This document shows, piece after piece, positions 13,550 through 63,786 of a stretch of 64,000 bases of DNA. Source of the DNA: Anaerolineaceae bacterium (GTDB lineage: Bacteria > Chloroflexota > Anaerolineae > Anaerolineales > Anaerolineaceae). Position numbers and translations under genes: made by a program. The DNA is taken from contig JAURZL010000014.1 of NCBI GenBank assembly GCA_030653365.1, positions 186,001 through 250,000 on the forward strand, written 5' to 3'. Within the stretch, counting starts at the first letter, position 1. Each line of letters opens with the position of its first letter. The notes under the pieces are model-generated. The model was given only the letters and a program-made list of their open reading frames with translations. It searched no databases and was not told where the DNA came from.

Positions 13550-14577
13550 CGCGATCCTCCCTCTTGCTCAAACTGCTTCAGGTTGATAGAGCGCTTTTCG
13601 CGATACGATTCCCAGGCCGCGTGTCCCAGCAGCACCGCCAGGCGTCCATCTTCACCATTGGTAGGGGTTGGTTTGTCATCCCGCACGCAGGCAATAAACT
13701 GGCAAACTTCATCAATATAGCACTGGGCATAGCGCTGCATGAAAAAATCCGTCAGCCGGCTGGTATGGAATCCATCGCGATGGCCTTTGGTGATCATGTT
13801 CTCGCTCTCATTACCGACCGCCACAAATCCATCCGAAAATAAGATTTCAACCCGCTGGTCATACCCATAGACGGCATGGCGACTGTTATCGATACATCCG
13901 ACCATCCCATTGGCAAACTTGAGGTTGACCACACAGGTATCCAGATCGCCGATTTCGTTCAAAGCCGGGTCGATCAGCACATTCCCCATCACCTGCAGCT
14001 CTGCGATCTCACCCCCCAGGTAGCGCGCCATGTCAAAATCGTGGATGGTCATATCCAGAAAGATTCCCCCGGAGGCTCGTAAATAATCCATGGGTGGCAG
14101 GCCCGGGTCGCGACTGGAGATGCGCAAGAGGCAGGGGTGTCCCATTTCACCGTTGGCGACCGCCTCGTGGACTTGCCGGAAATTTTTATCGAAGCGGCGG
14201 TTGAATCCGACCTGCAGCTTGACCCCGGCTTTTTCGACAACTTCCAGCACAGAGTCAATTTTTTCCAGCTCAAGCGCCAGTGGTTTTTCACAGAAGATTT
14301 GTTTCCCGGCCAGCGCCGCGTCTTTGATGATGAAATCGTGTGCTGTCGTAGTGGTTGCGATCAATACCGCTTCGATTTCCGGATCCGCGAGCAGTTCGTG
14401 ATAGTCGCGCACCACCCTCTCGATGCCCAATTCCGCGGCAAGCTCCTGTGCGACCTCCAGGCGAATATCACACAGCGCCACCAGCTCCGCCTCTGGTATG
14501 GCCTGGACGATATTTCTACAGTGGACACTGCCCATTCTCCCGGTCCCAATCACCGCAATTTTTACACGTCTGCTCAT
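13546..14577 (-). CDS. iolG: Inositol 2-dehydrogenase, Gfo/Idh/MocA family
   Basis: 343 aa from ATG 14577. I prefer this start to the longer frame at 14622 because AGAGGAG stands just upstream and the Rossmann strand follows at once. It oxidises a cyclitol or sugar hydroxyl with NAD. The NAD-binding VIGTGRMGSVHCRN is at the N-terminus, then CEKPLAL (the EKP motif), FNRRFDKNF, and SGGIFLDMTIHDFDMARYLG, which holds the catalytic D and H. The SRDP, TIHDFD and DNSRHAVYGYDQR blocks match IolG proteins closely. It is first in a two-gene operon with the TIM-barrel isomerase. Another Gfo/Idh substrate is possible. Confidence 0.85.
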   Translation of the reverse strand: MSRRVKIAVIGTGRMGSVHCRNIVQAIPEAELVALCDIRLEVAQELAAELGIERVVRDYHELLADPEIEAVLIATTTTAHDFIIKDAALAGKQIFCEKPLALELEKIDSVLEVVEKAGVKLQVGFNRRFDKNFRQVHEAVANGEMGHPCLLRISSRDPGLPPMDYLRASGGIFLDMTIHDFDMARYLGGEIAELQVMGNVLIDPALNEIGDLDTCVVNLKFANGMVGCIDNSRHAVYGYDQRVEILFSDGFVAVGNESENMITKGHRDGFHTSRLTDFFMQRYAQCYIDEVCQFIACVRDDKPTPTNGEDGRLAVLLGHAAWESYREKRSINLKQFEQEGGSR

Positions 14578-14672
14578 TGCTCCTCTTTCATTGTTGCCTA
14601 ATGATATTTCTTCTATTATCATACTATTTTTAGATTTTTTTGAATGGAAATCGCGTGATTTTGTAGGGTATC

Positions 14673-14705
14673 AGCCGTCAACGAATAGGAAACGAATAAA
14701 CGAAT
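14673..14705 (+). repeat. Left inverted repeat of the GxxExxY element
   Basis: 33 bp beginning AGCCGTCAACGAAT and ending AACGAATAAACGAAT. It matches the reverse complement of 15375-15407 at 32 of 33 positions. A third copy, in the same orientation, lies at 50830-50862. The internal CGAAT units repeat about every 8-10 bp. Confidence 0.85.
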
Positions 14706-14873
14706 AAATGAATACCACAAGGGTACTTTGTAAACGAATACCAATTGGAATACTTTCGTTGATGATGGAATTCGAGAAATTAATTGGAAAAAATAACATA
14801 CCCTCTTTTTTGAATATTTGAATTTCTGCTATGATTATTTGGTAATAAATTATCAATCAGGAGTAACATCACA

Positions 14874-51142: not shown

Positions 51143-51442
51143 TCATAAAGGAACTGCTTCTCTTTCGATATTACTCACAAAATCGCGATCTTTTGTCTGA
51201 GGTAATACCGACTTAGGAACGACATCCACCTGAATTCCTAACAATTGCTGTGCTTCATACCCAAAGCCTCCCACCCCGAACAAAGAGGATTCCGCTTCCA
51301 TTTCTACCAGAAAATCAACATCGCTCTGGATTTGACTCTCTCCACGGGCAATAGAACCAAAAACATACAGCTTCTTAATACCGTATTTTCTGGCTAAGCG
51401 CTTTAATTGTGGTTTATATAGGCGAAGTTGAGCAAAATTCAT
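51143..51442 (-). CDS. MNT-type minimal nucleotidyltransferase
   Basis: 99 aa. A Pol-beta-fold core with VFGSIARGE (G29-S30) and SDVDFLVE (D41, D43), and a third acid in IQVDVVP. In most genomes such proteins are antitoxins that AMPylate a HEPN toxin encoded beside them (MntA/HepT). No HEPN gene adjoins this one, so it is either solo, a remnant, or acts on a distant partner; the HEPN proteins at 9.2-12.1 kb are 40 kb away. AAGGAAC before ATG 51442. Surrounded by repeats, which fits an accessory region. Confidence 0.85.
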   Translation of the reverse strand: MNFAQLRLYKPQLKRLARKYGIKKLYVFGSIARGESQIQSDVDFLVEMEAESSLFGVGGFGYEAQQLLGIQVDVVPKSVLPQTKDRDFVSNIEREAVPL

Positions 51443-51536: not shown

Positions 51537-51585
51537 CAATCCTTCCGAAGGACTCCGCATGCACTTAGCGGAGCTAATCCTAAAT
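51537..51585. repeat. CTTCCGAAGGACTCCGC dispersed repeat
   Basis: Contains CCGAAGGACTCCGCATGCA, a stem CTCCGC...GCGGAG, and the palindrome CTTCCGAAG. Other copies are at about 51084, 52553 (with an insertion), 52615 and 63702. Confidence 0.7.
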
Positions 51586-52440
51586 CCTAAATATCTTCCG
51601 AAATGGTCCAATAAACCGGTAATCACTCGACCAATCTGTAATCGCAAAAATCACATTCTCAAACGCACCCACAAAATTATCATCGAGTGCTCGTTTGAAC
51701 AATCCAGCAATCTCATATCCATCATTTCCAAAAGCACCGCACCCCCATGCACCCAGTACAATCGATGTATGTCCCTGCTGGATCGCCACCGCCAGCACCT
51801 TGAGAATTCGTGACCACATCACCGCTCCAATTTGGTCTTCTTTCTCTGGCATAGTTCGTCGTACTGCATTCGCTAGAACAGCAGGTGATGTCAGGATTGC
51901 ACAGGTGTATGGAATAGATATAAGCGCTCCATCATCATCCCGAAATACAACTACTTCCGGAGAGTAGATCACATAATCCGAATAAAAAGGATCAAACAGC
52001 GATTCATGGTATGCATACATGGGATTGTTCTGCAGGCAGGCAAACAGTGTCGAGGAGCGTGCCAGATATTCCTCCTGGGCACGCGCACCGCGCAAAAAAC
52101 CTCCCCCAGGCTCTACAGCAGACGCAAAATTAAGCGCAACGGGACGTGTTCCGAGAGTGAGTAGTTGCTGAACAGCTGTGAGCGTGGTGCAATTCTGAAT
52201 CTCGATCCGTGTGTTTTGATTGCCATGCGCGATCTGTGGCAACAGTATCTCCGGAGGATAATTCACCGTACCATCAACAGATTTCTCCATTTTTTCACGA
52301 ATTTCTATGCGTGATCCATCCGCCAGATCGTAATATCCATTTCGGATGATCCTTATCGCTTCCTTCCCCAGCTGAATGGCCTGGTCGCGGTTGATCTCCA
52401 GCTGGCGACGGAGTATTTCTTTCGATTCAAACTGGTACAC
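51580..52440 (-). CDS. Microbial-type PARG (TIGR02452 family, macro-domain fold)
   Basis: 286 aa from GTG 52440. I prefer this start because AAAGGAGG lies 7 bases ahead of it; the upstream ATG (52467) and its in-frame neighbour overlap that site. The poly(ADP-ribose) glycohydrolase signature is present: GGG at about 111-113 and QEE at 122-124 (VEPGGGFLRGARAQEEYLAR). An internal VLGAWGCGAFGND is the conserved macro-fold phosphate loop. It removes ADP-ribose from proteins or nucleic acids, and may counter ADP-ribosylating toxins. Monocistronic. Confidence 0.9.
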   Translation of the reverse strand: MYQFESKEILRRQLEINRDQAIQLGKEAIRIIRNGYYDLADGSRIEIREKMEKSVDGTVNYPPEILLPQIAHGNQNTRIEIQNCTTLTAVQQLLTLGTRPVALNFASAVEPGGGFLRGARAQEEYLARSSTLFACLQNNPMYAYHESLFDPFYSDYVIYSPEVVVFRDDDGALISIPYTCAILTSPAVLANAVRRTMPEKEDQIGAVMWSRILKVLAVAIQQGHTSIVLGAWGCGAFGNDGYEIAGLFKRALDDNFVGAFENVIFAITDWSSDYRFIGPFRKIFRI

Positions 52441-52552
52441 GGATTTGCCTCCTTTCATAAAGCACAACCCTTATCGATTGTTTTCTACATTATAGAATAA
52501 CAGAACTTATACTCCCTGGACAACATCTTTATCTTGAGCCTTGCGAAGCCCC

Positions 52553-52685
52553 TCCAATTTTTCCGAAGGACTCCGTATCATGCCCTTTGGGTAAATGCAC
52601 TTAGCGGAGCTAATCCTTCCGAAGGACTCCACATGCACTAAGCGGAGCTAATCCTAATTTCTAACCCCTAACCCCTAACCCCTAA
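52553..52685. repeat. Dispersed repeats ending in a CCCCTAA heptamer run
   Basis: Two copies of the CTTCCGAAGGACTCC repeat (52553-52613, carrying an insert with ATCATGCCCTTTGGGTA also seen at 24552, and 52615-52655). Then three CCCTAAC-type heptamers at 52659-52685, which contain the stop codon of the following minus-strand gene. Confidence 0.65.
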
Positions 52686-53559: not shown

Positions 53560-53675
53560 AACTTATTGAAAAAATAAATTTTTATATAAATTACAGAAAT
53601 TTACTATTAATAAAATTCCTTGAAACAATTAACATAACTTAATATTTCCTTATCACATTTATGAAGAGGGGAGAA

Positions 53676-55064
53676 ATGCAAACTAGAAATCCAATTACAA
53701 ATGATGTTACAAGAAAGATTATTGAAGATTTCGCACAGGAAATCAAAGAGAAAAAAGAGCCCGGTCCAAAACCATCCAAAACGGTCGTTTTCTTTAGAAA
53801 TGAACGAGAAAACAATATTGAACGAGATGTTTATGAATTGCCTATTAATCTTTTGCGATTTAGAAAAGATAATGGCCGAATAGCATCTGATGTTATAAGT
53901 TATGAAAAAGATAAAGGCGTACTCCTAGAAGAAGAAGAGAGTACTCAGAAACTTTTACGAAAATTCCTTGAAGATAAAGATCCTGAAAAAACTAAGGAAT
54001 TAGTTCAATCTTTACGACAGCATGGTCAATTAGATCCTGCAATTATTACAGCTGATGGCTTTCTAATTAATGGGAATCGAAGAAAAGCGGCTCTCCACAT
54101 TCTCTATGAAAAAGAAAAAAATCCAAAATGGAACCGAATGAAGGTTGTTATTTTACCTGGAAAAGGAGATCCAGGTGGACCTCCCACTCTTAGAGAGATT
54201 GAGCAAATCGAGAATAGATATCAACTTCATAGCGAAGGAAAATCTGAATACACATTATTTGATAGAGCATTAACTATTCGAAGAAAAATAAAAATAGGTA
54301 TTCCATTAGAAGAGCAGTTGAAAGATGATCCAAAATTCTCAGCATTAGAAAACCGTGAATTCACACAAGCCGCAAGAAAATTTAAACAAGAATATCTTGA
54401 TCCATTAGAAAAAATTGACACCTATTTATTTTATTTGGGAAGAGAAAATTTATATTCAACCATATCAACTGGACCTGGTGATAGAGAAGGCAGATGGCAA
54501 GCATTCCTGGATTATAGCAAAATTTATCGAAATATATCAGATTCAAAATATCGTCAAAAGAATAATATTTTAATTTTAGAAAACGAGATAGGAAGTTTTG
54601 AAGAAATTGTTTTTAAACTAATTAGAAAGAGACATTTTCCAAGATTAAATAAAGTTCATAAAATTATTCGAGATTTACCGAGGTATTTAAAGAATTCTGA
54701 AGCAAAAGAAGAATTATTCAAGCTTAGTGAAATTGATTTGGTCTTACCTGATTCAGAAAGCTTTGATGTGGATGGAAATGAATATGATGAAAGGACAAAG
54801 GATTCCCTTTGGGGAGAAAAACATCAAACAACAATAATTAGACATGTCAAAAAAGCAAGAGATTTAATAGAATGGGAAAAAGAAAAAGAAACACCAATAA
54901 GATTATTAGAGGACGCATTAAGTAAGTTAGATGATGAAAATTTGATACCAGAACTAGTGCCCAAATCTGAAATGAAAAACGCGTTAAGATTATCAGAAAG
55001 TATAGAGAAACGCGCAAAAGAACTAAGATGTGAATTTTATAATCTCCAAAAAAACAAAGCATAA
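53676..55064 (+). CDS. ParB/Srx-like domain protein, first gene of a restriction-like cassette
   Basis: 462 aa from ATG 53676, preceded by AGAGGGGAGAA; the in-frame ATG 53661 overlaps that site. The N-terminal ParB-like fold includes VYELPINLLRFRKDNGR and LVQSLRQHGQLDPAIITADG, then LINGNRRKAAL (NGNRR at 132-136), the nucleotide-binding GxxR-type motif of ParB/Srx proteins. The rest is helical and charged, with no HNH motif. In related systems ParB-like proteins are CTP- or ATP-dependent nucleases or DNA clamps. Very AT-rich. It stands 25 bp before the helicase gene. Confidence 0.75.
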   Translation: MQTRNPITNDVTRKIIEDFAQEIKEKKEPGPKPSKTVVFFRNERENNIERDVYELPINLLRFRKDNGRIASDVISYEKDKGVLLEEEESTQKLLRKFLEDKDPEKTKELVQSLRQHGQLDPAIITADGFLINGNRRKAALHILYEKEKNPKWNRMKVVILPGKGDPGGPPTLREIEQIENRYQLHSEGKSEYTLFDRALTIRRKIKIGIPLEEQLKDDPKFSALENREFTQAARKFKQEYLDPLEKIDTYLFYLGRENLYSTISTGPGDREGRWQAFLDYSKIYRNISDSKYRQKNNILILENEIGSFEEIVFKLIRKRHFPRLNKVHKIIRDLPRYLKNSEAKEELFKLSEIDLVLPDSESFDVDGNEYDERTKDSLWGEKHQTTIIRHVKKARDLIEWEKEKETPIRLLEDALSKLDDENLIPELVPKSEMKNALRLSESIEKRAKELRCEFYNLQKNKA

Positions 55065-55089
55065 TTTTCACACGTAAACCGGTTTATTT

Positions 55090-56991
55090 ATGATAATTGA
55101 TATTCAAAACAACAAAATCAGAATAACAGAATACGAAAATGTATTAAAACCTCGCCACAAAAGCCAATTATTTTATTGGGGTTTTAAAGTTGAAGTTGGT
55201 GGAATTTTAATTTATCCAAATAATGATTTAAAAGAGTATTTAATAGATCTTATTGAATATTTAAACGATGCCAAAATTGATTTTGTTCTTTCAGATTCAT
55301 GTAAAAAAGAAATAAATTCCATTCAATATGAAAAAGAAATATTTTCTGAAACAATAAAAGAGGCAAAAGAATTTAAAGATGGTTTTCTTGATAAAAAAAA
55401 CTGGTCAATCCAACAAAAATTTTTGAATGAATCAATAGTTAGACCACTAAAGGAACATCAAATAAAGGCTTTTTTGCACCTTTCAATTCTTGGAAATGGT
55501 GCAAATTTTTCTGTGCCAGGAAGTGGAAAAACAACAGTGGTGTTAGCTCATTACGAAATGCTAAGGAAAAAAGGTGATGTAAATTTACTGTTTGTTGTAG
55601 GTCCTGCAGCATGCTTTGCTCCTTGGAAAAGTGAATTTAATTTAGTGTTGAACAGAGCTCCAAATTGTGTAATACTTGCAGGAGGAGATAAAACCCAAAG
55701 AAAAAGTAAATATTATAAAACAGACAAAATACCTGAATTATATTTAACTACCTTCCAAACACTATTAAATGACAAAGAAGAGATTACATTCTTTTTAAAA
55801 AACAGAAAAGTTAAGGCATATTTTGTTGTTGATGAGGCACATTATTTAAAAAGAATAGATGGGCAATGGGCTTCAGCTGTTTTAGAAATTGCCAAGTATG
55901 CTAAATCTCGGTGTGCTCTTACAGGTACTCCAATACCACATAGTTATAGTGACTTGTTTAATTTATTTGATTTCCTTTGGCCTGAACAAAAACCGATTAA
56001 TAAAAATGACCGCGCATTAATCGTATCGCTTGAAGAACAAAACAGGTTCGAAGAAGCTCAGGTAATCTTAGATAAAGAAATTGGCCCCCTTTTTTATAGG
56101 GTAAGAAAATCAGAATTAAATCTTAAACCACAGATTTTCCATGAACCTATTTTGATTGATATGAATCCCATTGAACGTCAAATTTATGATGCAATTATTT
56201 ATAAGATTCGAGATTATGCCAAGGATGATTACCTTAGGAATATAGAAATTGTTCGAAGGTTAAGAAAAGGCAGGATGATGAGGGTTAGACAATGTTTATC
56301 ATTTTCTCAACTTCTTTCTACTGCAATAGGGGATTATGACGGATATGAAAGTTTCTTCTCCCACGATTCGGATCTTGAAAAATTAATTTTAGAATATGGA
56401 GTAAATGAAATTCCAGCTAAAATAAATAAGCTCACTTCATTAGTCCATAATTTTCAAACCCAAAGAAAAAAAACAGTAATTTGGTCTAACTTTATTGGAA
56501 CAGTAAATCTAATAGAAAAAGAAATAAAGAATAGAGGCTGGAGCTGTAAGAAAATTATTGGAGAAATACCTATTGAAAAAGTTGGAATGGAAGAGGAGGA
56601 AACACGTGAAAAAATCATAGAAAAATTTACCGATTCAGATAGTGGATTAGATATTCTGATTGCAAATCCAGCAGCTTGTGCTGAATCGATATCACTTCAT
56701 AAAACGTGTCACAATGCAATATATTATGATCTTTCTTATAATGCCGCTCAATATTTACAATCCCTAGATAGAATTCATAGGGTTGGGGGATCAGAATTCA
56801 TAGAAGCAAATTATTATTTTCTACAATATAACAATTCAATTGATTCAGATATTTTGAACAACCTGCTCAATAAAGCAAAAAAAATGTATGATGTAATAGA
56901 AGGTGATTACAATATTTACTCTCTAGATATGGATGAATTTGAAGAAAATAGTGATTTTGAAGCTTATCAAACTATATTTGGAAAAATATGA
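55090..56991 (+). CDS. SNF2-type superfamily 2 helicase/translocase
   Basis: 633 aa. It has a distinctive N-terminal ~130 residues of unknown fold and then an SF2 core. Walker A is VPGSGKTT with GSGKT at 144-148. Motif II is VVDEAHYLKR (DEAH 248-251) and motif III is ALTGTPIPHSYSDLF. The C-terminal RecA domain has NPAACAESISLHKTCHNAIY and QSLDRIHRVGG (motif VI with R). This is the SNF2-like translocase arrangement. It would move on DNA to activate or restrict. The stop overlaps the next gene's start by 4 bp (ATGA). Confidence 0.85.
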   Translation: MIIDIQNNKIRITEYENVLKPRHKSQLFYWGFKVEVGGILIYPNNDLKEYLIDLIEYLNDAKIDFVLSDSCKKEINSIQYEKEIFSETIKEAKEFKDGFLDKKNWSIQQKFLNESIVRPLKEHQIKAFLHLSILGNGANFSVPGSGKTTVVLAHYEMLRKKGDVNLLFVVGPAACFAPWKSEFNLVLNRAPNCVILAGGDKTQRKSKYYKTDKIPELYLTTFQTLLNDKEEITFFLKNRKVKAYFVVDEAHYLKRIDGQWASAVLEIAKYAKSRCALTGTPIPHSYSDLFNLFDFLWPEQKPINKNDRALIVSLEEQNRFEEAQVILDKEIGPLFYRVRKSELNLKPQIFHEPILIDMNPIERQIYDAIIYKIRDYAKDDYLRNIEIVRRLRKGRMMRVRQCLSFSQLLSTAIGDYDGYESFFSHDSDLEKLILEYGVNEIPAKINKLTSLVHNFQTQRKKTVIWSNFIGTVNLIEKEIKNRGWSCKKIIGEIPIEKVGMEEEETREKIIEKFTDSDSGLDILIANPAACAESISLHKTCHNAIYYDLSYNAAQYLQSLDRIHRVGGSEFIEANYYFLQYNNSIDSDILNNLLNKAKKMYDVIEGDYNIYSLDMDEFEENSDFEAYQTIFGKI

Positions 56992-57938
56992 GCTCAGAAA
57001 TTATTTTTCCGAATTTACAAGGGATAAAACAGCTAATTTCCTTATTGAACACAACAAAAATTAAAAAAACAGAGTATCTAAAGAGAAGATTTGAGAGTAC
57101 TTCAAAAAACTTTTATGAAACCATAACTTTCCTTGAAAAATTAGAATTAATTGAGGTCAGATCAGATTCTATAGAATGTACTTATACCTTTCAAAAGTTT
57201 GTAAATTTTCCTAATGATAAACTAAAATTCCAAAAAGCATTTCTAATTCAAATTCTGCAGTCAAAAAAACAAGACTTTAAAATTTTTAATGAGTACTTTT
57301 CCAAATTTCAGTTGAATGAAGATAAATTAGTTTATAAACCAACTACCAAACAAAGACTTCAAGACAGCGGGGTAAGAAATCTTCTAATGGAATTAGATAT
57401 TATTGAGTTTATGGAATTTGAAAAAACTTACCGTATTTCAAACGAATTCCAGTATTTTTTTATTGAGAATAAAGATAAGCACAGCATAACACCAGAAGAA
57501 TTCGAAAAGAGAAGTAAGAAACAAAATAAGATTGGCTATTTAGCAGAATTAACAATATTGGATTATGAAAAAAACCGTTTGAATTCTAAACTAAATATAA
57601 TTCATAGTATTATACACGTTGCACTTGAGAACATTTCAGCGGGATACGATATTTTAAGTTATGAAATGGATAATAAGGGATCAATTTTTATAGAGAGACA
57701 TATAGAGGTGAAGGCTGTGTCAATTATTGACTACAAATTTTATTGGAGTAGAAACGAAATTGAAACAGCAAAAATAGATGGATTACAATATTATTTATAT
57801 TTGTTGCCAGTTGTTGGAAACAGTAAATTTGATATTAATAATTTAAAGATAATACCAAACGCATTTGAAAATGTATTTTTAAAAAATAAAGAATGGAATA
57901 AACAGGAAGAATTATTTAGTTTTTGGAAAATGAATTAA
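56988..57938 (+). CDS. DUF3883-like nuclease domain protein
   Basis: 316 aa. The N-terminal half (about 1-170) is helical and unrecognised. The C-terminal half resembles DUF3883: KIGYLAELTILDYEKNRLNS, then a PD-(D/E)XK-type site with SAGYDI (D221) and HIEVKAV (E240, K242), and a later YYLYLLPVV. I infer the effector nuclease of the cassette. It overlaps the helicase gene by 4 bp and ends 2 bp before ATG 57941 of the methyltransferase. Substrate and cut specificity are unknown. Confidence 0.75.
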   Translation: MSSEIIFPNLQGIKQLISLLNTTKIKKTEYLKRRFESTSKNFYETITFLEKLELIEVRSDSIECTYTFQKFVNFPNDKLKFQKAFLIQILQSKKQDFKIFNEYFSKFQLNEDKLVYKPTTKQRLQDSGVRNLLMELDIIEFMEFEKTYRISNEFQYFFIENKDKHSITPEEFEKRSKKQNKIGYLAELTILDYEKNRLNSKLNIIHSIIHVALENISAGYDILSYEMDNKGSIFIERHIEVKAVSIIDYKFYWSRNEIETAKIDGLQYYLYLLPVVGNSKFDINNLKIIPNAFENVFLKNKEWNKQEELFSFWKMN

Positions 57939-57940
57939 TA

Positions 57941-58840
57941 ATGATTTCGAAAAAAGTCACCAAAAAAATTTTTATGCCTGTAGATGTCATCTATCAAGGA
58001 GAATCGGAAAAAATTCTTACTAATATGTATTTATTTCCAGATAATTCTGTAGATTTTATAATAACATCACCTCCCTATGCAGATAAACGGAAAAAATTTT
58101 ACAACAGCATTCATCCTGATGATTATGTAGATTGGTTCTTGCCAATAAGTAAAGAATTATTAAGGATATTAAAACCAAACGGGTCTTTTGTTTTAAACAT
58201 AAAAGAACACCCAAGGAATGGTCAACGCGAAACGTATGTTTTAAAATTAATCCTTGCTCTAAAAGACCAGGGCTGGTGTTGGATTGAAGAATATGTTTGG
58301 TATAAAAAGAATTCATTTCCTGGAAAATGGCCAAATAGATTTAGAGATGCATGGGAAAGATGCTTCCATTTAACAAAAAACGAAAAATTTAAAATGTATC
58401 AAGACTCAGTTAAAGTGCCAATTGGTGATTGGGCTGAAAAAAGATTTAAATCGATGTCAGATAACGATTTCAAACGACATTTATCGCAAACTAATAGCTC
58501 ATTAGGTCGAAATGTATCAAATTGGTTGAATAGAAAAAAAGTATATCCTCATAATGTAATTGTTTTTGAAGAAGAGCATTATGTTTCTAACGTTTTAGAA
58601 TTTGCAACAGAGTGCAGTAATCGAAACCATAGTGCAGCATTTCCTCTAGAACTCCCAACTTGGTTCATAAAGCTTTTTACAAGAAAAGGAGATATTGTTC
58701 TCGATCCGTTTTTGGGCTCCGGCACCACTGCTTATGCAGCCTTAGCTTTAAATCGACATTATGTGGGGGTTGAAAAAGATCAAGAATATATTGAATTAAT
58801 TAATAAACAAATTGACAAACTAAATAAGACCGAAAACTAA
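57941..58840 (+). CDS. DNA methyltransferase, beta class (N6-adenine or N4-cytosine)
   Basis: 300 aa from ATG 57941; TTG 57923 would overlap the upstream gene. Catalytic TSPPYADKRK (42-46 for TSPPY) comes before the SAM-binding motif DPFLGSGTT (255-263), so the motif order is IV-X-I, the beta class. VGVEKDQEYIELI ends the SAM fold. ELPTWFIKLF is motif X. Serine in the SPPY form occurs in both N4-cytosine and some N6-adenine enzymes, so the base is undecided. As last gene of the AT-rich operon it probably protects self DNA from the helicase-nuclease pair. Confidence 0.9.
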   Translation: MISKKVTKKIFMPVDVIYQGESEKILTNMYLFPDNSVDFIITSPPYADKRKKFYNSIHPDDYVDWFLPISKELLRILKPNGSFVLNIKEHPRNGQRETYVLKLILALKDQGWCWIEEYVWYKKNSFPGKWPNRFRDAWERCFHLTKNEKFKMYQDSVKVPIGDWAEKRFKSMSDNDFKRHLSQTNSSLGRNVSNWLNRKKVYPHNVIVFEEEHYVSNVLEFATECSNRNHSAAFPLELPTWFIKLFTRKGDIVLDPFLGSGTTAYAALALNRHYVGVEKDQEYIELINKQIDKLNKTEN

Positions 58841-58960
58841 CTACATATCAGATTCCACAAATATCAAATATTCAAAAAATACTTACCCAATGTTTGGCAT
58901 CAGAAGATTTCACAATCTCTTCCCATATAATTTAGGACAAACAAGCTCAAAAATTCAAGG

Positions 58961-59256
58961 ATGGATATTAAGAAAAGATCTAAACAAATTATTGAATTTC
59001 GAGAGATAAGAAAATGTGAATAATTTTTTAAAATTAAAGATTTGTTACTTGGTCTTGATAACAAAGTATCAGGACTAATGGAATTGTTTTTATGGAAATA
59101 AATAATGAGATTGATGAGACCCCAAATGAAAAGAGTTAACGCGAATTAGCCGATACTTTCATCAATCTTGCTTATTTTGCCGAAAAATTTAATATTGATT
59201 TAGAAGAAGCAATTGTTGAAAAAATTGAACTCAATGGAAAAAATATCCAGTGTTGA
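58961..59256 (+). pseudogene. Decayed MazG-like nucleotide pyrophosphohydrolase
   Basis: Three frames together rebuild a RS21-C6/MazG-like protein. The first is MDIKKRSKQIIEFREIRKCE then stop. The second is DLLLGLDNKVSGLMELFLWK then stop. The third is NNEIDETPNEKS, stop, then RELADTFINLAYFAEKFNID continuing EEAIVEKIELNGK. The ELAD of the metal-binding ExxD remains, but the first EExxE is lost. At least two frameshifts and two or more stops show it is not functional. Intact relatives hydrolyse abnormal or phage dNTPs. The rest of 58841-59446 shows no gene. Reconstruction is by eye. Confidence 0.7.
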
Positions 59257-59446
59257 AGAGCTTTGGCTCGCAATAATGGATTATTTTTCGAAATTTTTAA
59301 ATGAAATTAATGATTGATTAATCTTTTTTCTTGCCTTCTATAAAGTAATTTCCAAACTTGGTTAAATTTATAAATTATTAAAAAAAATAATCGCAAAAAT
59401 TGTATAAATAGTATTCTTAACTAGATCCAAGAAAAATAAGGAAGAA

Positions 59447-62275
59447 CTACATTTCTAAAGATGTTGATAAATATGAACATGAATACTCTTTTGATTTCTC
59501 ATCGAAAAGCAATTTAATGTGATTATCCATTGTAAAATAAATTATTTGCCAGCCCTCAATCGCAAGATCAAACACATAATTTATTAAATTATTTCGCCTA
59601 TTCCAATCAGAATGTTGGAAAGCATCATCAAGGAGAAGAAACATTTTTTCGGTTTTTAGTAGATTTGCGGCAAAACCAAGTCTTAAACTTAACAGAATTT
59701 GCTCTCTCGTGCCTGTGCTGATATTTTTTATTGGAAAAATATTAAAATCATCTTTTACACAAAGGCCCGTTTCATCAAGAAAATAATTTTTATATCGCCC
59801 AGTAAGTTTAAAAAGAGGCTTAGTAATTAATGGTGAGTTCAATGTTAATTTAATAGTTTCTCTTTCATTATTAGCCAATTCGCAAATAGTCTGATTTACA
59901 AGTATTCCTGCAATTATTTGCGAATTAATTTTGTCTAATTCATTAGATAATAATTGTTTCTTGTTCATTAATATATCAATTAGCTTTTCAAATGAATCAG
60001 AAATTCTTCCATTTACTGCTCCAATTAATTTTAACCTTAGGTTCTCTACTTCTTGTTCTTCAGCTTTTATATGTTCAGAAAGAGATACCATTTCTTCATT
60101 AATTTTTTTCAAGGATTCAATTTCAAAGTTAATGGTTTCAGAATCCTGACAAACCACATAATCAACCTCATTGACATTTAATTCTGCCAGCTTAATTAAA
60201 TTTTGATTTATTTCTTCATCATATTTCTTAATTAGATTTTGCGCATAGAAAATTTTTTGTTTTATCGAATTAAAATCAAATTCAGAAACATCATAATCGA
60301 AAACCTCATTATTGCTATTTTCCTTCTTTATATCAGATATAAAATTTTCCAAAACATTAATTTCATTGGTTTGTTCTTGAAGTTTATTTTTTAATTCGTG
60401 ATATTCGTCTTGCCATTTTTGAAAAACCTGTATTTCATTTTTGTCTATTATTGGAAATACTTTAATATCTATGCCTTCTTGGTTTAAAAATAGATGCCTC
60501 TTATCAATTTCCGAGGAAAGATCTTTAATTTTAATTTGAATATTTGAATATTGAGTTGTCAGAACTTCATAAGAATCAGACACATATTCAGAATAAATAA
60601 ATGAATCTTTATTAATTTGTAGTGAATCGTAAAAGGCGTTTATTTTGTTGTAATCATTGATAAATTGATTGGCTTTTTCACTTAGTAAGGAAATTCCATT
60701 ATTCCAATCACTTGAGGAGGAAGTGTGAATATTGTTCTTTATGAAATTTGTTTCAATTGTGTTCTTGATTTTTTCCAATTCCTCTGACTTTGTTAATAAT
60801 TCTTGTTCTATGTTCTTCTTAAGAATTTCCAATTCTCTTAATTTGTCTCTTTTTGCTCTTAATAACGGCAAATCCACTTGTGATACATTAATATCCATTA
60901 ATTCAGAATAATGTTGCCTAATAGCATCAATTTCATGTAGCGCGGTGTTACTAAGAATTTTCTCCTGTAGATTCTTTTTAGTTTTACTTTCCATTATTGT
61001 GTTGAAAGTTATTAATATTCCAATTAAAAGAAAAGCTGTAAATAATAAAAATTGGGCTGTTGATTGCGTATTAATAAAAAACAAAAGAATAATTGATAGG
61101 AAAATGAGACAATAAATTATTATTGGTAATAGCCAAGAAGGCCAAAGCTTCTTGTTTATCTCTTTTTCATCTTTATTGCCCAAACATTGCTGATAAATTT
61201 CTATCGAATCGTCAATCCATTTATACGAAGCCAATTGAATTTCCAATTCATCGTTATCAATTTGATGATTTTCAATTTTTTTATTTATCTCAATATATTT
61301 ATTTGCTTCAGCGGTTAAATGTTCGACTAATTGCAAATTGACTATCTTTAAATTTTCTTCAAGCTTCTTTTTTTTATTATCGAGAGCAAAAGCAATCTTT
61401 CCAATTTTTTCTTTTTCATTTTCGATTTCTCTATTTAAAAAAGAGATTTCACTATGTAAACAGGCCAATATACTTGATTGTTCTTGTTTAATTTTTATGT
61501 TTTGGCTTTGTAAATGATATATATAATTCCTAATATGCTTATAATGATTTGCAATTTCGTCTTTCAGTTTTTGATCAATGGAGAAAAGTTCACAGTTTCT
61601 ATTGTTTGTTTTATACGCCAATTTGCAACTATTTTCGTAATAAGTTTTATATAATTTTTCTTTTTCAACAAAAATAGTTCTTAATGTTTGAATTTCACCT
61701 TCAGAATATAATAAATTAACTTCATTCAACAATTCTAATGTTGCCCTAAACTCATTTTCTATTTCATTCTTCTTTTTGATTTCTCCAGTTTTTTTGCCAT
61801 TAATTTCACCGTTTTCAAAACTAGCTGATTTGATTGAGGCAGAGAAATTGTTTCTAATCTGATCTAGGACAAATTCATTTGATAAATATTTCTTTATGAT
61901 ATTTTCACCAACACCATCCGGGGAATCGTCGAATTCTAATTCGCCAGCTCTAACAACAAGCAATTTGCTTAAATCTTTAGGTAATTTAGTTTTATCTGAG
62001 GATATAAAATCTTCTAATCTTTTATTCTTACTATCCGGTGAAAAGTCTCTACTATTATCATCAAATCCATCAACCTCAATCAAACCATTACCTGGAAAGC
62101 TTCTTAAATTAAATCCCCTAGTATCCTTAAATAAAGATTTAATCAGAAATTCTATAAGAAATGTTTTGCCACTTTCATTTACACCAAATATTAAATTTAC
62201 ATCTTTAAAAGATAGGTTTAATTTTTCAATTGGTCCTAAATTATAGACACTCAATTTATTAATTCTAATAGCCAT
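59447..62275 (-). CDS. Rad50/SbcC-like (YhaN-type) ATPase with mid-protein membrane helices
   Basis: 942 aa from ATG 62275; TTG 62278 is 3 bp upstream. The N-terminal Walker A GVNESGKT (31-38) sits in a Rad50-type start, NKLSVYNLGPIEKLNLSF. Long coiled coils follow. Two hydrophobic helices lie at about 381-421 (IIIYCLIFLSIILLFFINT and FLLFTAFLLIGILITFNTI), as in B. subtilis YhaN. The C-terminal signature is NISTGTREQILLSLRLG and Walker B is MFLLLDDAF (about 880). It should bind DNA ends and ATP with its phosphoesterase partner. The gene overlaps the partner's stop by one base. Very AT-rich. Confidence 0.85.
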   Translation of the reverse strand: MAIRINKLSVYNLGPIEKLNLSFKDVNLIFGVNESGKTFLIEFLIKSLFKDTRGFNLRSFPGNGLIEVDGFDDNSRDFSPDSKNKRLEDFISSDKTKLPKDLSKLLVVRAGELEFDDSPDGVGENIIKKYLSNEFVLDQIRNNFSASIKSASFENGEINGKKTGEIKKKNEIENEFRATLELLNEVNLLYSEGEIQTLRTIFVEKEKLYKTYYENSCKLAYKTNNRNCELFSIDQKLKDEIANHYKHIRNYIYHLQSQNIKIKQEQSSILACLHSEISFLNREIENEKEKIGKIAFALDNKKKKLEENLKIVNLQLVEHLTAEANKYIEINKKIENHQIDNDELEIQLASYKWIDDSIEIYQQCLGNKDEKEINKKLWPSWLLPIIIYCLIFLSIILLFFINTQSTAQFLLFTAFLLIGILITFNTIMESKTKKNLQEKILSNTALHEIDAIRQHYSELMDINVSQVDLPLLRAKRDKLRELEILKKNIEQELLTKSEELEKIKNTIETNFIKNNIHTSSSSDWNNGISLLSEKANQFINDYNKINAFYDSLQINKDSFIYSEYVSDSYEVLTTQYSNIQIKIKDLSSEIDKRHLFLNQEGIDIKVFPIIDKNEIQVFQKWQDEYHELKNKLQEQTNEINVLENFISDIKKENSNNEVFDYDVSEFDFNSIKQKIFYAQNLIKKYDEEINQNLIKLAELNVNEVDYVVCQDSETINFEIESLKKINEEMVSLSEHIKAEEQEVENLRLKLIGAVNGRISDSFEKLIDILMNKKQLLSNELDKINSQIIAGILVNQTICELANNERETIKLTLNSPLITKPLFKLTGRYKNYFLDETGLCVKDDFNIFPIKNISTGTREQILLSLRLGFAANLLKTEKMFLLLDDAFQHSDWNRRNNLINYVFDLAIEGWQIIYFTMDNHIKLLFDEKSKEYSCSYLSTSLEM

Positions 62276-63327
62276 CAAAACCTCCCAAAAATCAAATTCA
62301 TAATTTCTTGGGTGATAAGCTCCTTTATCTCACTATAATTTCCAAAGTTAATATTTGAAGCATTCTCGAGAACTCTTTCTGATATTGACAATCGAACTTG
62401 ATCAGAGTTTGCTGGTAAAAGGTCTAAAATTTTTAATTCGTAGAACAGGATATTTGGGTCTTTTTCTAAATATCCTTTCACATAGGTTTCAGTTATATTA
62501 CGATCAAAACTATAACCAGCTAAAGTTATTCTAACAATCTTTTTCATCTCTTGAGAATTCGCAAAATTAAAGAAGATGTGATCTAATTTATTCTTTAAAT
62601 ATTCCTCTTCTTTATCTGTAGGATATATCAAAATTCTCTCATTTATATATATATAATCTGTAGTTATATTGTGGGATTCGACCTTAAAATTAAAGGTATC
62701 GAACACTAAAAACCTTCTATGACCAGTTTCTGTTATATCTAAACCACAAGGTGATCCGGAGTAATATATATTATTTAGTGAGGTTTGCGCATGAATATGA
62801 CCAAGGAAAACCATATTTGGTTGAAACAACTCTATATCCTTAATTGAGAGTGGCATGTAAATTCCCTTTTCATACTCTGATTTGACATTAATATTTGATA
62901 AAAGATCTCCATGTCCAACTAATACCCATTTAAGATCTTTAATGTTTTCTGACCACTTTCCGACTTCAGACCCCATTGAATTATTATCTTTATAAGGGAC
63001 AAAAAGAAAATTTATTCCACCTATTTCAATTAATTGAGTATCCTCAATTACAAAAATTTTACTTTTGGAAAACATAGATTGATTTATGAATGGGTCGTGA
63101 TTTCCAGGCAATAAATAAACTTGAAGATCCAAAATTTGTGATTGGTCGATGGCTACTTCAAGTAAATTAAAATCAGAGTTTTCATAATCGAAACAATCTC
63201 CTGCGATTATTAAGACTTTTATATCCTCTTCTTGTAATTTTCTTAGGACATCAACCAAAGCGTTAAATCGACTAGTGTAATTTTTGCCATTACGTAAATG
63301 TATATCTGCTGTTATTGCAATCTTCAT
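62275..63327 (-). CDS. Mre11/SbcD-like (YhaO-type) metallophosphoesterase
   Basis: 350 aa. All five phosphoesterase motifs are present: D8-x-H10 (ADIH), GD at 43-44, GNHD at 75-78, GH at 138-139 and GHIH at 176-179. It is a DNA exo/endonuclease that works with the Rad50-like ATPase encoded directly downstream. AAAGGGGTGAC precedes ATG 63327. The pair is first-order syntenic with YhaO-YhaN/SbcD-SbcC operons. Its convergent position to the restriction-like cassette and matching AT-richness suggest it belongs to the same accessory block. Confidence 0.9.
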   Translation of the reverse strand: MKIAITADIHLRNGKNYTSRFNALVDVLRKLQEEDIKVLIIAGDCFDYENSDFNLLEVAIDQSQILDLQVYLLPGNHDPFINQSMFSKSKIFVIEDTQLIEIGGINFLFVPYKDNNSMGSEVGKWSENIKDLKWVLVGHGDLLSNINVKSEYEKGIYMPLSIKDIELFQPNMVFLGHIHAQTSLNNIYYSGSPCGLDITETGHRRFLVFDTFNFKVESHNITTDYIYINERILIYPTDKEEEYLKNKLDHIFFNFANSQEMKKIVRITLAGYSFDRNITETYVKGYLEKDPNILFYELKILDLLPANSDQVRLSISERVLENASNINFGNYSEIKELITQEIMNLIFGRF

Positions 63328-63501
63328 GTCACCCCTTTCACCGTATAACCAAAAAATTTATTTTATCAAATGGCCGGGAAAATAAGTTATAAAAAAAACC
63401 ATACTTGTTAATATTATACATTGGGGCAATATTGTATGAACAAGTTATCGAAAATTAAAATAGTCTATAATTTAGTGAATTGAAGAAGAATAATAAATAA
63501 T

Positions 63502-63663: not shown

Positions 63664-63701
63664 TCCCCCATCCATCCGCGCCTTCCGTTTTTTCCTTAAG
63701 A

Positions 63702-63784
63702 ACTTCCGCAGGACTCCGCACGCACTTAGCGGAGCAACAGCTCAACAGCTTCCGAAGGACTCCAAATGTTCTTGTTGGAGCAAC
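63702..63784. repeat. CTTCCGAAGGACTCCGC dispersed repeats (two copies)
   Basis: CTTCCGCAGGACTCCGCACG...GCGGAGCAACAG, and CTTCCGAAGGACTCC...TTGGAGCAACAG, the family described at 51537. They lie at the 3' end of the aldo/keto reductase. Confidence 0.65.
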
Positions 63785-63786
63785 AG

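Follow-up and report, generated by a model that had tools for sequence, protein, structure and literature searches.

A 64,000-nucleotide stretch of contig JAURZL010000014.1 from an Anaerolineaceae bacterium (the window) carries at 53676–58840 an operon of four genes, which encode a ParB-fold protein, a SNF2-family ATPase, a protein with a NOV_C (DUF3883) domain and a beta-class DNA methyltransferase (Table 1). Comparison with related loci revealed that the ParB–SNF2 gene pair is the constant unit, around which nucleases and methyltransferases are exchanged, and that the four genes together represent one form within a broader family. The operon is probably an ATP-dependent restriction–modification (R-M)-like defence system with a ParB–SNF2 core. 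The first-pass annotation, made from the sequence alone, had described four AT-rich genes running in one direction, the first two 25 bp apart, the second and third overlapping by 4 bp and the last two separated by 2 bp, which is borne out by the coordinates of the four intact open reading frames (ORFs). A Shine-Dalgarno-like GGGGAG just 5' of the ParB-like gene favours a start at 53676 over 53661. The gene identities given by that annotation (ParB-like protein, SNF2 protein, DUF3883 nuclease, beta-class methyltransferase) are upheld by Pfam and fold matches.

Proteins encoded by the operon

The ParB-fold protein of the window has no Pfam match, and its best PADLOC match is PDC-M38A (7.5e-4). 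Its AlphaFold (AF2) model (pLDDT 92.1, pTM 0.87) was searched with Foldseek, and the nine best PDB chains all came from the ParB-family entries 1vz0 and 5k5d (E 0.011 for the best chain, at probability 1.0), placing the protein by its modelled fold in the ParB superfamily (ParB/Srx fold); sequence profiles gave weak support for this superfamily (Spo0J 1vz0, E 0.0052). In an alignment of 62 relatives (A4), R73, Q123, G133, N139, R141, E184 and Y197 are invariant, and G138, L165, Q188 and R337 are conserved in at least 90% of the sequences. Residue R73, the GNRR motif (138–141) and the E184/Q188 pair are at what we take to be positions of the nucleotide (CTP-binding) pocket. No more than three of the 62 aligned proteins match any one PADLOC family, and the commonest Pfam family, ddrB-ParB, weakly matches five. 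Instead of being a nuclease, the protein may act as a DNA clamp or adaptor that depends on a nucleotide.

The SNF2 protein matches PF00176 (6.2e-18) and Helicase_C (3.4e-9) in Pfam, with ResIII as second match, and G144, G146, K147, T148, D248, E249 and H251 are invariant among 45 sequences. The third protein matches the NOV_C family (PF13020, 1.4e-12) and carries the motif E187..D221..E240-x-K242, in which E187, D221, E240 and K242, together with G219, are invariant in 50 of 50 sequences. Foldseek with its AF2 model (pLDDT 91.0, pTM 0.67) returned weak matches to R.SwaI (E 0.045) and Hjc resolvase (E 0.061), and winged helix-turn-helix proteins lower in the list. With its invariant D..(D/E)xK motif and weak fold support, the NOV_C protein is a probable nuclease of the PD-(D/E)XK type. 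The fourth protein is an N6_N4_Mtase (PF01555, 1.6e-45; best PADLOC match the generic MTase_II, 4e-47) whose closest solved relative is the N4-cytosine enzyme M.PvuII (1boo, 1.7e-28 over residues 18–285), and it is probably a PvuII-like methyltransferase of the N4-methylcytosine (m4C) type.

The ParB–SNF2 pair and its exchangeable partners

For a SNF2-anchored survey we took the best 80 of at least 414 relatives (at least 587 stretches matched) in genome contigs by SNF2 alignment, a choice that favours close kin. Of these 80, 78 had a same-strand ParB gene directly upstream of SNF2; in the other two, L026 and L055 (loci are designated by L numbers throughout), the start of SNF2 lies close to the end of its contig, and a broader profile detected a partial ParB there, bringing the count to 80/80. 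By contrast, none of 11 other SNF2 genes, each with at least 2.5 kb of upstream DNA, had a ParB or NOV_C relative nearby; this control is narrow, as its genes all belong to the window's genome or to one of ten relatives, and they encode larger proteins (about 1000 aa or more). Since ParB lies 5' of SNF2 in 80/80 loci versus 0/11 control loci, the pairing is beyond chance. Anchoring on ParB gave the same picture: SNF2 came next in 18 of 21 viral-contig loci (in one of them, L123, interrupted by a 353-aa ORF), the other three contigs ending there, and among 400 genomes of the window's phylum all four ParB matches, the window's included, were followed by SNF2. The first-pass annotation had named a lack of conserved co-occurrence beforehand as grounds for giving up its proposal, and the ParB–SNF2 pairing holds in both surveys.

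Unless stated otherwise, further counts refer to 107 loci from the window, plasmids, genomes and viral contigs, which remained of 111 after removal of L061 for an ORF overlap (its ParB is nonetheless seen) and of L113, L114 and L127 for contig ends. The six plasmid loci among them were picked because both queries matched, and hence are no test of co-occurrence. The ParB–SNF2 gap is at most 25 bp in 105 of the 107. Loci with a named phylum belong to Actinomycetota, Bacteroidota, Bacillota, Pseudomonadota and others, and four are archaeal. The same four genes in identical order and strand recur in L009, L018 and L044; Chloroflexota, Bacillota and a thaumarchaeon share this order. As the constant unit is ParB–SNF2, and the nuclease and methyltransferase are exchanged, the 'exactly this set' of the first-pass annotation is one form among others.

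A methyltransferase was found within five genes in 88 of the 107 loci, of the C5 class in 51 and otherwise of the PF01555, D12, DUF1156 or Eco57I types (class calls in which representatives were confirmed by Pfam). Vsr accompanies 23 of the 51 C5 loci, none of the 37 with other methyltransferases only, and four of the 19 with none recognised; its restriction to C5 loci as against the other classes fits the expectation for active 5-methylcytosine modification. A quick SNF2 tree with 106 rows, from which L123 was left out (interrupted SNF2, <450 aa), shows at least 12 changes of methyltransferase class, or possibly 11, as the label of L112 is probably an artefact, and at least 10 changes in the presence of NOV_C. 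The methyltransferases of L044 and L106 share 64% and 60% identity with the window's, although the ParB and SNF2 proteins of these two loci share only 30–34% (local alignments), and one PF01555 methyltransferase family, 53–73% identical in six loci, goes with cores as distant as about 30%. The simplest reading of these alignments is that the methyltransferase was swapped between distant cores; a methyltransferase evolving more slowly than the core is a possible alternative.

NOV_C was found in 75 of the 107 loci. Among 76 NOV_C ORFs 62 fit the strict motif, and of the other 14, 11 keep D..ExK and three are truncated or fragments. Loci without NOV_C often have another nuclease, namely a PLD-like, NaeI-like, Sau3AI/MutH-like or type III Res protein. 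The PLD-like domain sits at the SNF2 N-terminus in 6/6 long SNF2 proteins tested (four above the Pfam cut-off), and the catalytic motif is kept in 7/7 NaeI-like, 5/8 Sau3AI/MutH-like and 5/5 type III Res proteins. Across 106 loci, 73 had NOV_C only, two had both, 17 another nuclease only and 14 neither by the profiles used (Fisher p 1.7e-9, kinship ignored); a phylogeny-aware test of this alternation was not significant (nine independent pairs, median p 0.125). Among the 14 loci with neither, L007 has an McrBC-like pair after SNF2 and L081 an intact NaeI-like gene farther off.

Several further genes adjoin the core. In the viral contigs L122–L125 a type III Res gene directly precedes ParB–SNF2, with a Mod-like methyltransferase before Res in L122–L124, and in L018 a YhcG-type PD-(D/E)XK nuclease gene (13678–14850; PF06250, 1.9e-43) starts 2 bp after the methyltransferase. 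Three loci without NOV_C carry other genes 5' of ParB: a PNP_UDP_1 phosphorylase-superfamily gene, possibly an alternative effector, lies 3 bp upstream in L010 (7833–8606) and 17 bp upstream in L011 (7745–8518), and an AbiEii gene (PF08843) with a DUF6577 partner is directly upstream in L013 (6266–8110). One family of large proteins (642–915 aa) is encoded directly 5' of ParB in L007, L068, L070, L073, L077, L078 and L084, mostly in Bacillota; of three that were scanned, two have sigma-70 region 4 domains, one of these also RNA polymerase alpha-CTD-like domains, and the family comprises candidate DNA-recognition subunits.

Some partners resemble restriction enzymes but lack acidic residues of the active site. 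A protein of the BglII/BamHI/BstYI family occurs in seven NOV_C loci (L060, L067, L072, L076, L082, L119 and L126), being 152–154 aa long in six; in Pfam, L060 scores above the cut-off, L072 and L082 fall just short of it, and a profile built from five of these partners matched BstYI (4.7e-7) and BamHI (8.4e-6). The position of the catalytic Glu, presumably that of BamHI E111, is Cys or Gln in 7/7 partners, compared with Glu or Asp in 22/22 family ORFs from 20 loci of the phylum, 37 of whose 400 genomes have the family. The BglII-type catalytic Asp is likewise missing in 7/7 partners and kept in 20/22 comparison ORFs, but an invariant Asp of the partners (D65 in alignment A8) sits near the spacing of BamHI D94, so that, in these alignments, the loss of the Glu alone is secure. 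None of the 13 alignable BanI/DpnII-like partners keeps both acidic residues of bona fide BanI and DpnII proteins: 12 have lost the first, and the remaining one has Asn at the second; several of the 13 are near-duplicates, the contigs of L113 and L114 end at ParB, and the aligned proteins are distant. A PDB search with the BanI-like alignment gave no match. The pattern is not exclusive to ParB loci, as a weak DpnII-family protein in L131, from a genome without a ParB match (G010), also lacks the second acidic residue. These substitutions, which represent few independent origins, suggest that dead BglII-like and BanI/DpnII-like enzymes were reused as recognition subunits.

Competing explanations

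If the operon is an ATP-dependent R-M-like system, the methyltransferase would mark the cell's own DNA, probably as m4C, and so protect self, and the restriction side would act on unmarked foreign DNA. Restriction would most likely come from the ParB, SNF2 and NOV_C proteins because the ten genes scanned in the window yielded no other recognisable endonuclease. The ParB-fold protein would be a clamp or adaptor on DNA, gated by a nucleotide, while SNF2 would translocate along DNA and the NOV_C protein would cut it, presumably within one complex. In the four-gene form the sequence might be read by the methyltransferase itself or by the N-terminal part of the NOV_C protein; for loci without a partner of restriction-endonuclease fold, the apparent methyltransferase exchange between distant cores argues for the methyltransferase. 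Several points weigh against this reading. The fold matches of the ParB and NOV_C models are weak by E-value, and ParB/Srx proteins can be nucleases themselves (PMC5512222), which leaves the clamp role insecure. Further, 19 of the 107 loci have no recognised methyltransferase, several of them being cut by contig ends, and in the Bacteroidota loci L010, L011, L013, L014 and L015, which have ParB, SNF2 and a methyltransferase, none of the profiled nucleases was found. Defence function, finally, is something that we infer from the genes. A broader view, which we hold tentatively and consider somewhat doubtful, is that ParB–SNF2 is a general ATP-driven restriction engine that outsources recognition and cutting to docked R-M cassettes of many classes. 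Recognition would then fall in some cassettes to the dead BglII/BamHI-like and BanI/DpnII-like enzymes that travel with the methyltransferase, or in the four-gene form to the methyltransferase, and cutting to NOV_C, the PLD domain or a still-active restriction enzyme.

The kept catalytic motifs of the NaeI-like, type III Res and part of the Sau3AI/MutH-like enzymes raise a different possibility, that ParB–SNF2(–NOV_C) is an accessory or backup module on complete R-M systems, attacking for example DNA that is cut by or escapes the partner enzyme. It does adjoin seemingly complete systems, and the McrBC-like pair of L007 and the YhcG-type nuclease of L018 would also fit, yet a second endonuclease was not recognised in the ten scanned genes of the window, the BglII-like partners are without their catalytic glutamate, and where an intact classical nuclease lies close by (14 loci), NOV_C is missing from 12, as if the two were alternatives; we regard such a module as unlikely. 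The matches of NOV_C to other PADLOC defence proteins (PDC-S36, 2.1e-10; PD-T4-1, 1.5e-7; TmtA, 1.3e-4) would agree with modification-dependent, type IV-like restriction, in which ParB–SNF2–NOV_C attacks modified DNA and the methyltransferase is incidental. The frequency of a nearby methyltransferase and the company that one PF01555 family keeps with distant cores make this very improbable. Much the same holds for the idea that the locus helps to partition or maintain a mobile element and has no defence role: the ParB fold, the carriage on plasmids and viral contigs and a ParA-family gene nearby on the L005 plasmid speak for it, and R-M systems can serve as addiction modules, but the scanned neighbours in the window include no ParA, the pair keeps company with restriction enzymes, Vsr and many different classes of methyltransferase, and the window's copy lies on a 296-kb contig and is followed by genes that look chromosomal by eye. 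That the locus is a divergent DISARM, BREX or Zorya system is scarcely credible. The SNF2 protein does have ZorD as its best PADLOC match (7.4e-29) and also matches DrmD (4.2e-13), but the NCBIfam scores fall far under the cut-offs (DrmD 47.6 of 610 bits, ZorD 36.2 of 1500 bits) and no defining partner gene is among the four, the operon giving no match to DUF1998 (DrmB) of DISARM or to PglZ or BrxC/PglY of BREX, and the scanned proteins none to ZorA/ZorB of Zorya.

If these interpretations hold, a widespread ATP-dependent restriction engine would so far have escaped naming, its components being annotated one by one as 'ParB', 'DEAD/DEAH box helicase', 'DUF3883' and a solitary methyltransferase. 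It might account for some type II methyltransferases that seem to be orphans, and specificity and cutting would be separable and recombinable in R-M evolution, with dead restriction enzymes reused.

Genomic setting and known systems

The operon lies in an AT-rich island (29% GC, compared with 45% for positions 1–53559). Among 60 genomes related to the window's at the level of genus, family or order, none has a close copy; the 10 that gave a match at E 1e-20 have SNF2 frames of 1008–1140 aa. The operon was probably acquired, given the missing close copies and the odd GC.

Table 1. Features of the operon and its surroundings (window coordinates)
Feature	Position	Strand	Remarks
Nucleotidyltransferase	51143..51442		PF01909 3.2e-14; MntA model below cut-off
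PARG-like gene (microbial)	51580..52467		PF10021 4.1e-44
Short repeats, upstream	52556..52655		outside island
AT-rich island with operon and convergent Mre11/Rad50-like pair	53560..63400	.	29% GC, ~9.8 kb
ParB-fold protein	53676..55064 (ORF open from 53661)	+	462 aa; GNRR, E(x3)Q motifs conserved
SNF2-family ATPase, probable translocase	55090..56991	+	633 aa; Walker A GSGKT, DEAH box intact
NOV_C/DUF3883 probable nuclease	56988..57938	+	316 aa; helical N-terminal part, then PD-(D/E)XK-like domain
Beta-class DNA methyltransferase	57941..58840	+	299 aa; SPPY, DPFLGSGTT motifs
Remnant	58841..59317		MazG-like fragment 59140..59256, PF12643 E 0.03
Rad50-like gene (weak)	59447..62278		AAA_27 0.0065 (Pfam), Rad50_Sulf 0.0049 (NCBIfam)
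Mre11-like gene	62275..63327		PF00149 (Metallophos) 9.1e-14, above cut-off; SbcD TIGR00619 4.4e-14, below cut-off
Short repeats, downstream	63695..63786		outside island

The flanking Mre11/Rad50-like pair of the first-pass annotation is supported on its Mre11-like side and weakly on its Rad50-like side, and the decayed MazG-like gene that it saw corresponds to a fragment with a weak match, below the cut-off, in the remnant between the operon and the Rad50-like gene. The pair (59447–63327) is convergent to the operon inside the island, and blastp (E 1e-5) detected no relative of it in ORFs from related ParB–SNF2 loci; it is probably a passenger outside the system. Just 5' of the island are the PARG-like and nucleotidyltransferase genes; these, and neighbours of 91 aa and 253 aa, were rejected as parts of the system, likewise having no blastp relative (E 1e-5) in related-locus ORFs. 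Short similar repeats (up to about 46 nt, TTCCGAAGGACTCC...) lie outside both island ends, and pieces of the upstream repeat flank recur elsewhere in four other genomes of the genus. An Rfam scan of 48–64 kb of the window gave no match, predicted promoters were about as many as chance would give (34 against 32.1), and scans for terminators and tRNAs found none.

In line with the first-pass annotation, no named defence system in PADLOC or NCBIfam matches the whole cassette: none of their system models brings the four proteins together, and no NCBIfam model reaches its cut-off for any of them. The operon encodes a methyltransferase together with a predicted nuclease, as R-M systems do in general. 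In classical type II systems a nucleoside triphosphate (NTP)-independent endonuclease shares its recognition site with the methyltransferase; the present operon carries a SNF2 ATPase. Type I and type III were rejected, there being neither HsdS nor Mod plus Res among the four proteins. From ParB/Spo0J partition proteins (1vz0, 5k5d), which share fold and short motifs with the ParB-fold protein, the operon differs in pairing it with SNF2 and a methyltransferase, no ParA partner being seen among the window's neighbours. In CglI/NgoAVII systems the nuclease is a PLD protein with a B3 domain, not NOV_C; membership was rejected, as the motor here best matches SNF2 (PF00176) and the nuclease is NOV_C.

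In the open-access literature, the scope of our search (REBASE and subscription papers lay outside it), no description of the ParB–SNF2–DUF3883–methyltransferase set was found; the texts consulted offer partial precedents only, namely DUF3883 with SNF2, PLD–SNF2–methyltransferase and MORC–SNF2 operons. CglI/NgoAVII-type systems resemble the operon in having separate genes for a methyltransferase, a nuclease protein and a helicase-like ATPase and in NTP-dependent cleavage, but their motor is DEAD-family, not SNF2, and their abstracts mention no ParB protein (PMC4267653, PMC5737866). DUF3883 has been treated as a restriction nuclease before, as a novel REase (restriction endonuclease) domain fused to a SNF2 helicase in R-M operons (PMC3710099) and as a presumed type II REase group in an archaeal survey (PMC10609329); the former operon includes a DUF499 AAA/HEPN protein, and the portions of both papers that we consulted do not describe the present set. 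A three-gene plasmid operon with a PLD–SNF2 protein and a methyltransferase has the domain order of the PLD–SNF2 loci found here, although its authors, in the text consulted, name no ParB and the likeness is one of description, kinship being unproved (PMC6098607). MORC/paraMORC operons likewise join SNF2 to an ATPase thought to loop DNA and lie beside C5 methyltransferases, Vsr and assorted nucleases, but have a GHKL MORC in the place of ParB, a word absent from the text, figures aside (Iyer et al. 2008, PMC2292703). If the present interpretation is right, the ParB–SNF2 core would be, after MORC, a second case in which SNF2 is joined by a protein thought to use a nucleotide in holding DNA.

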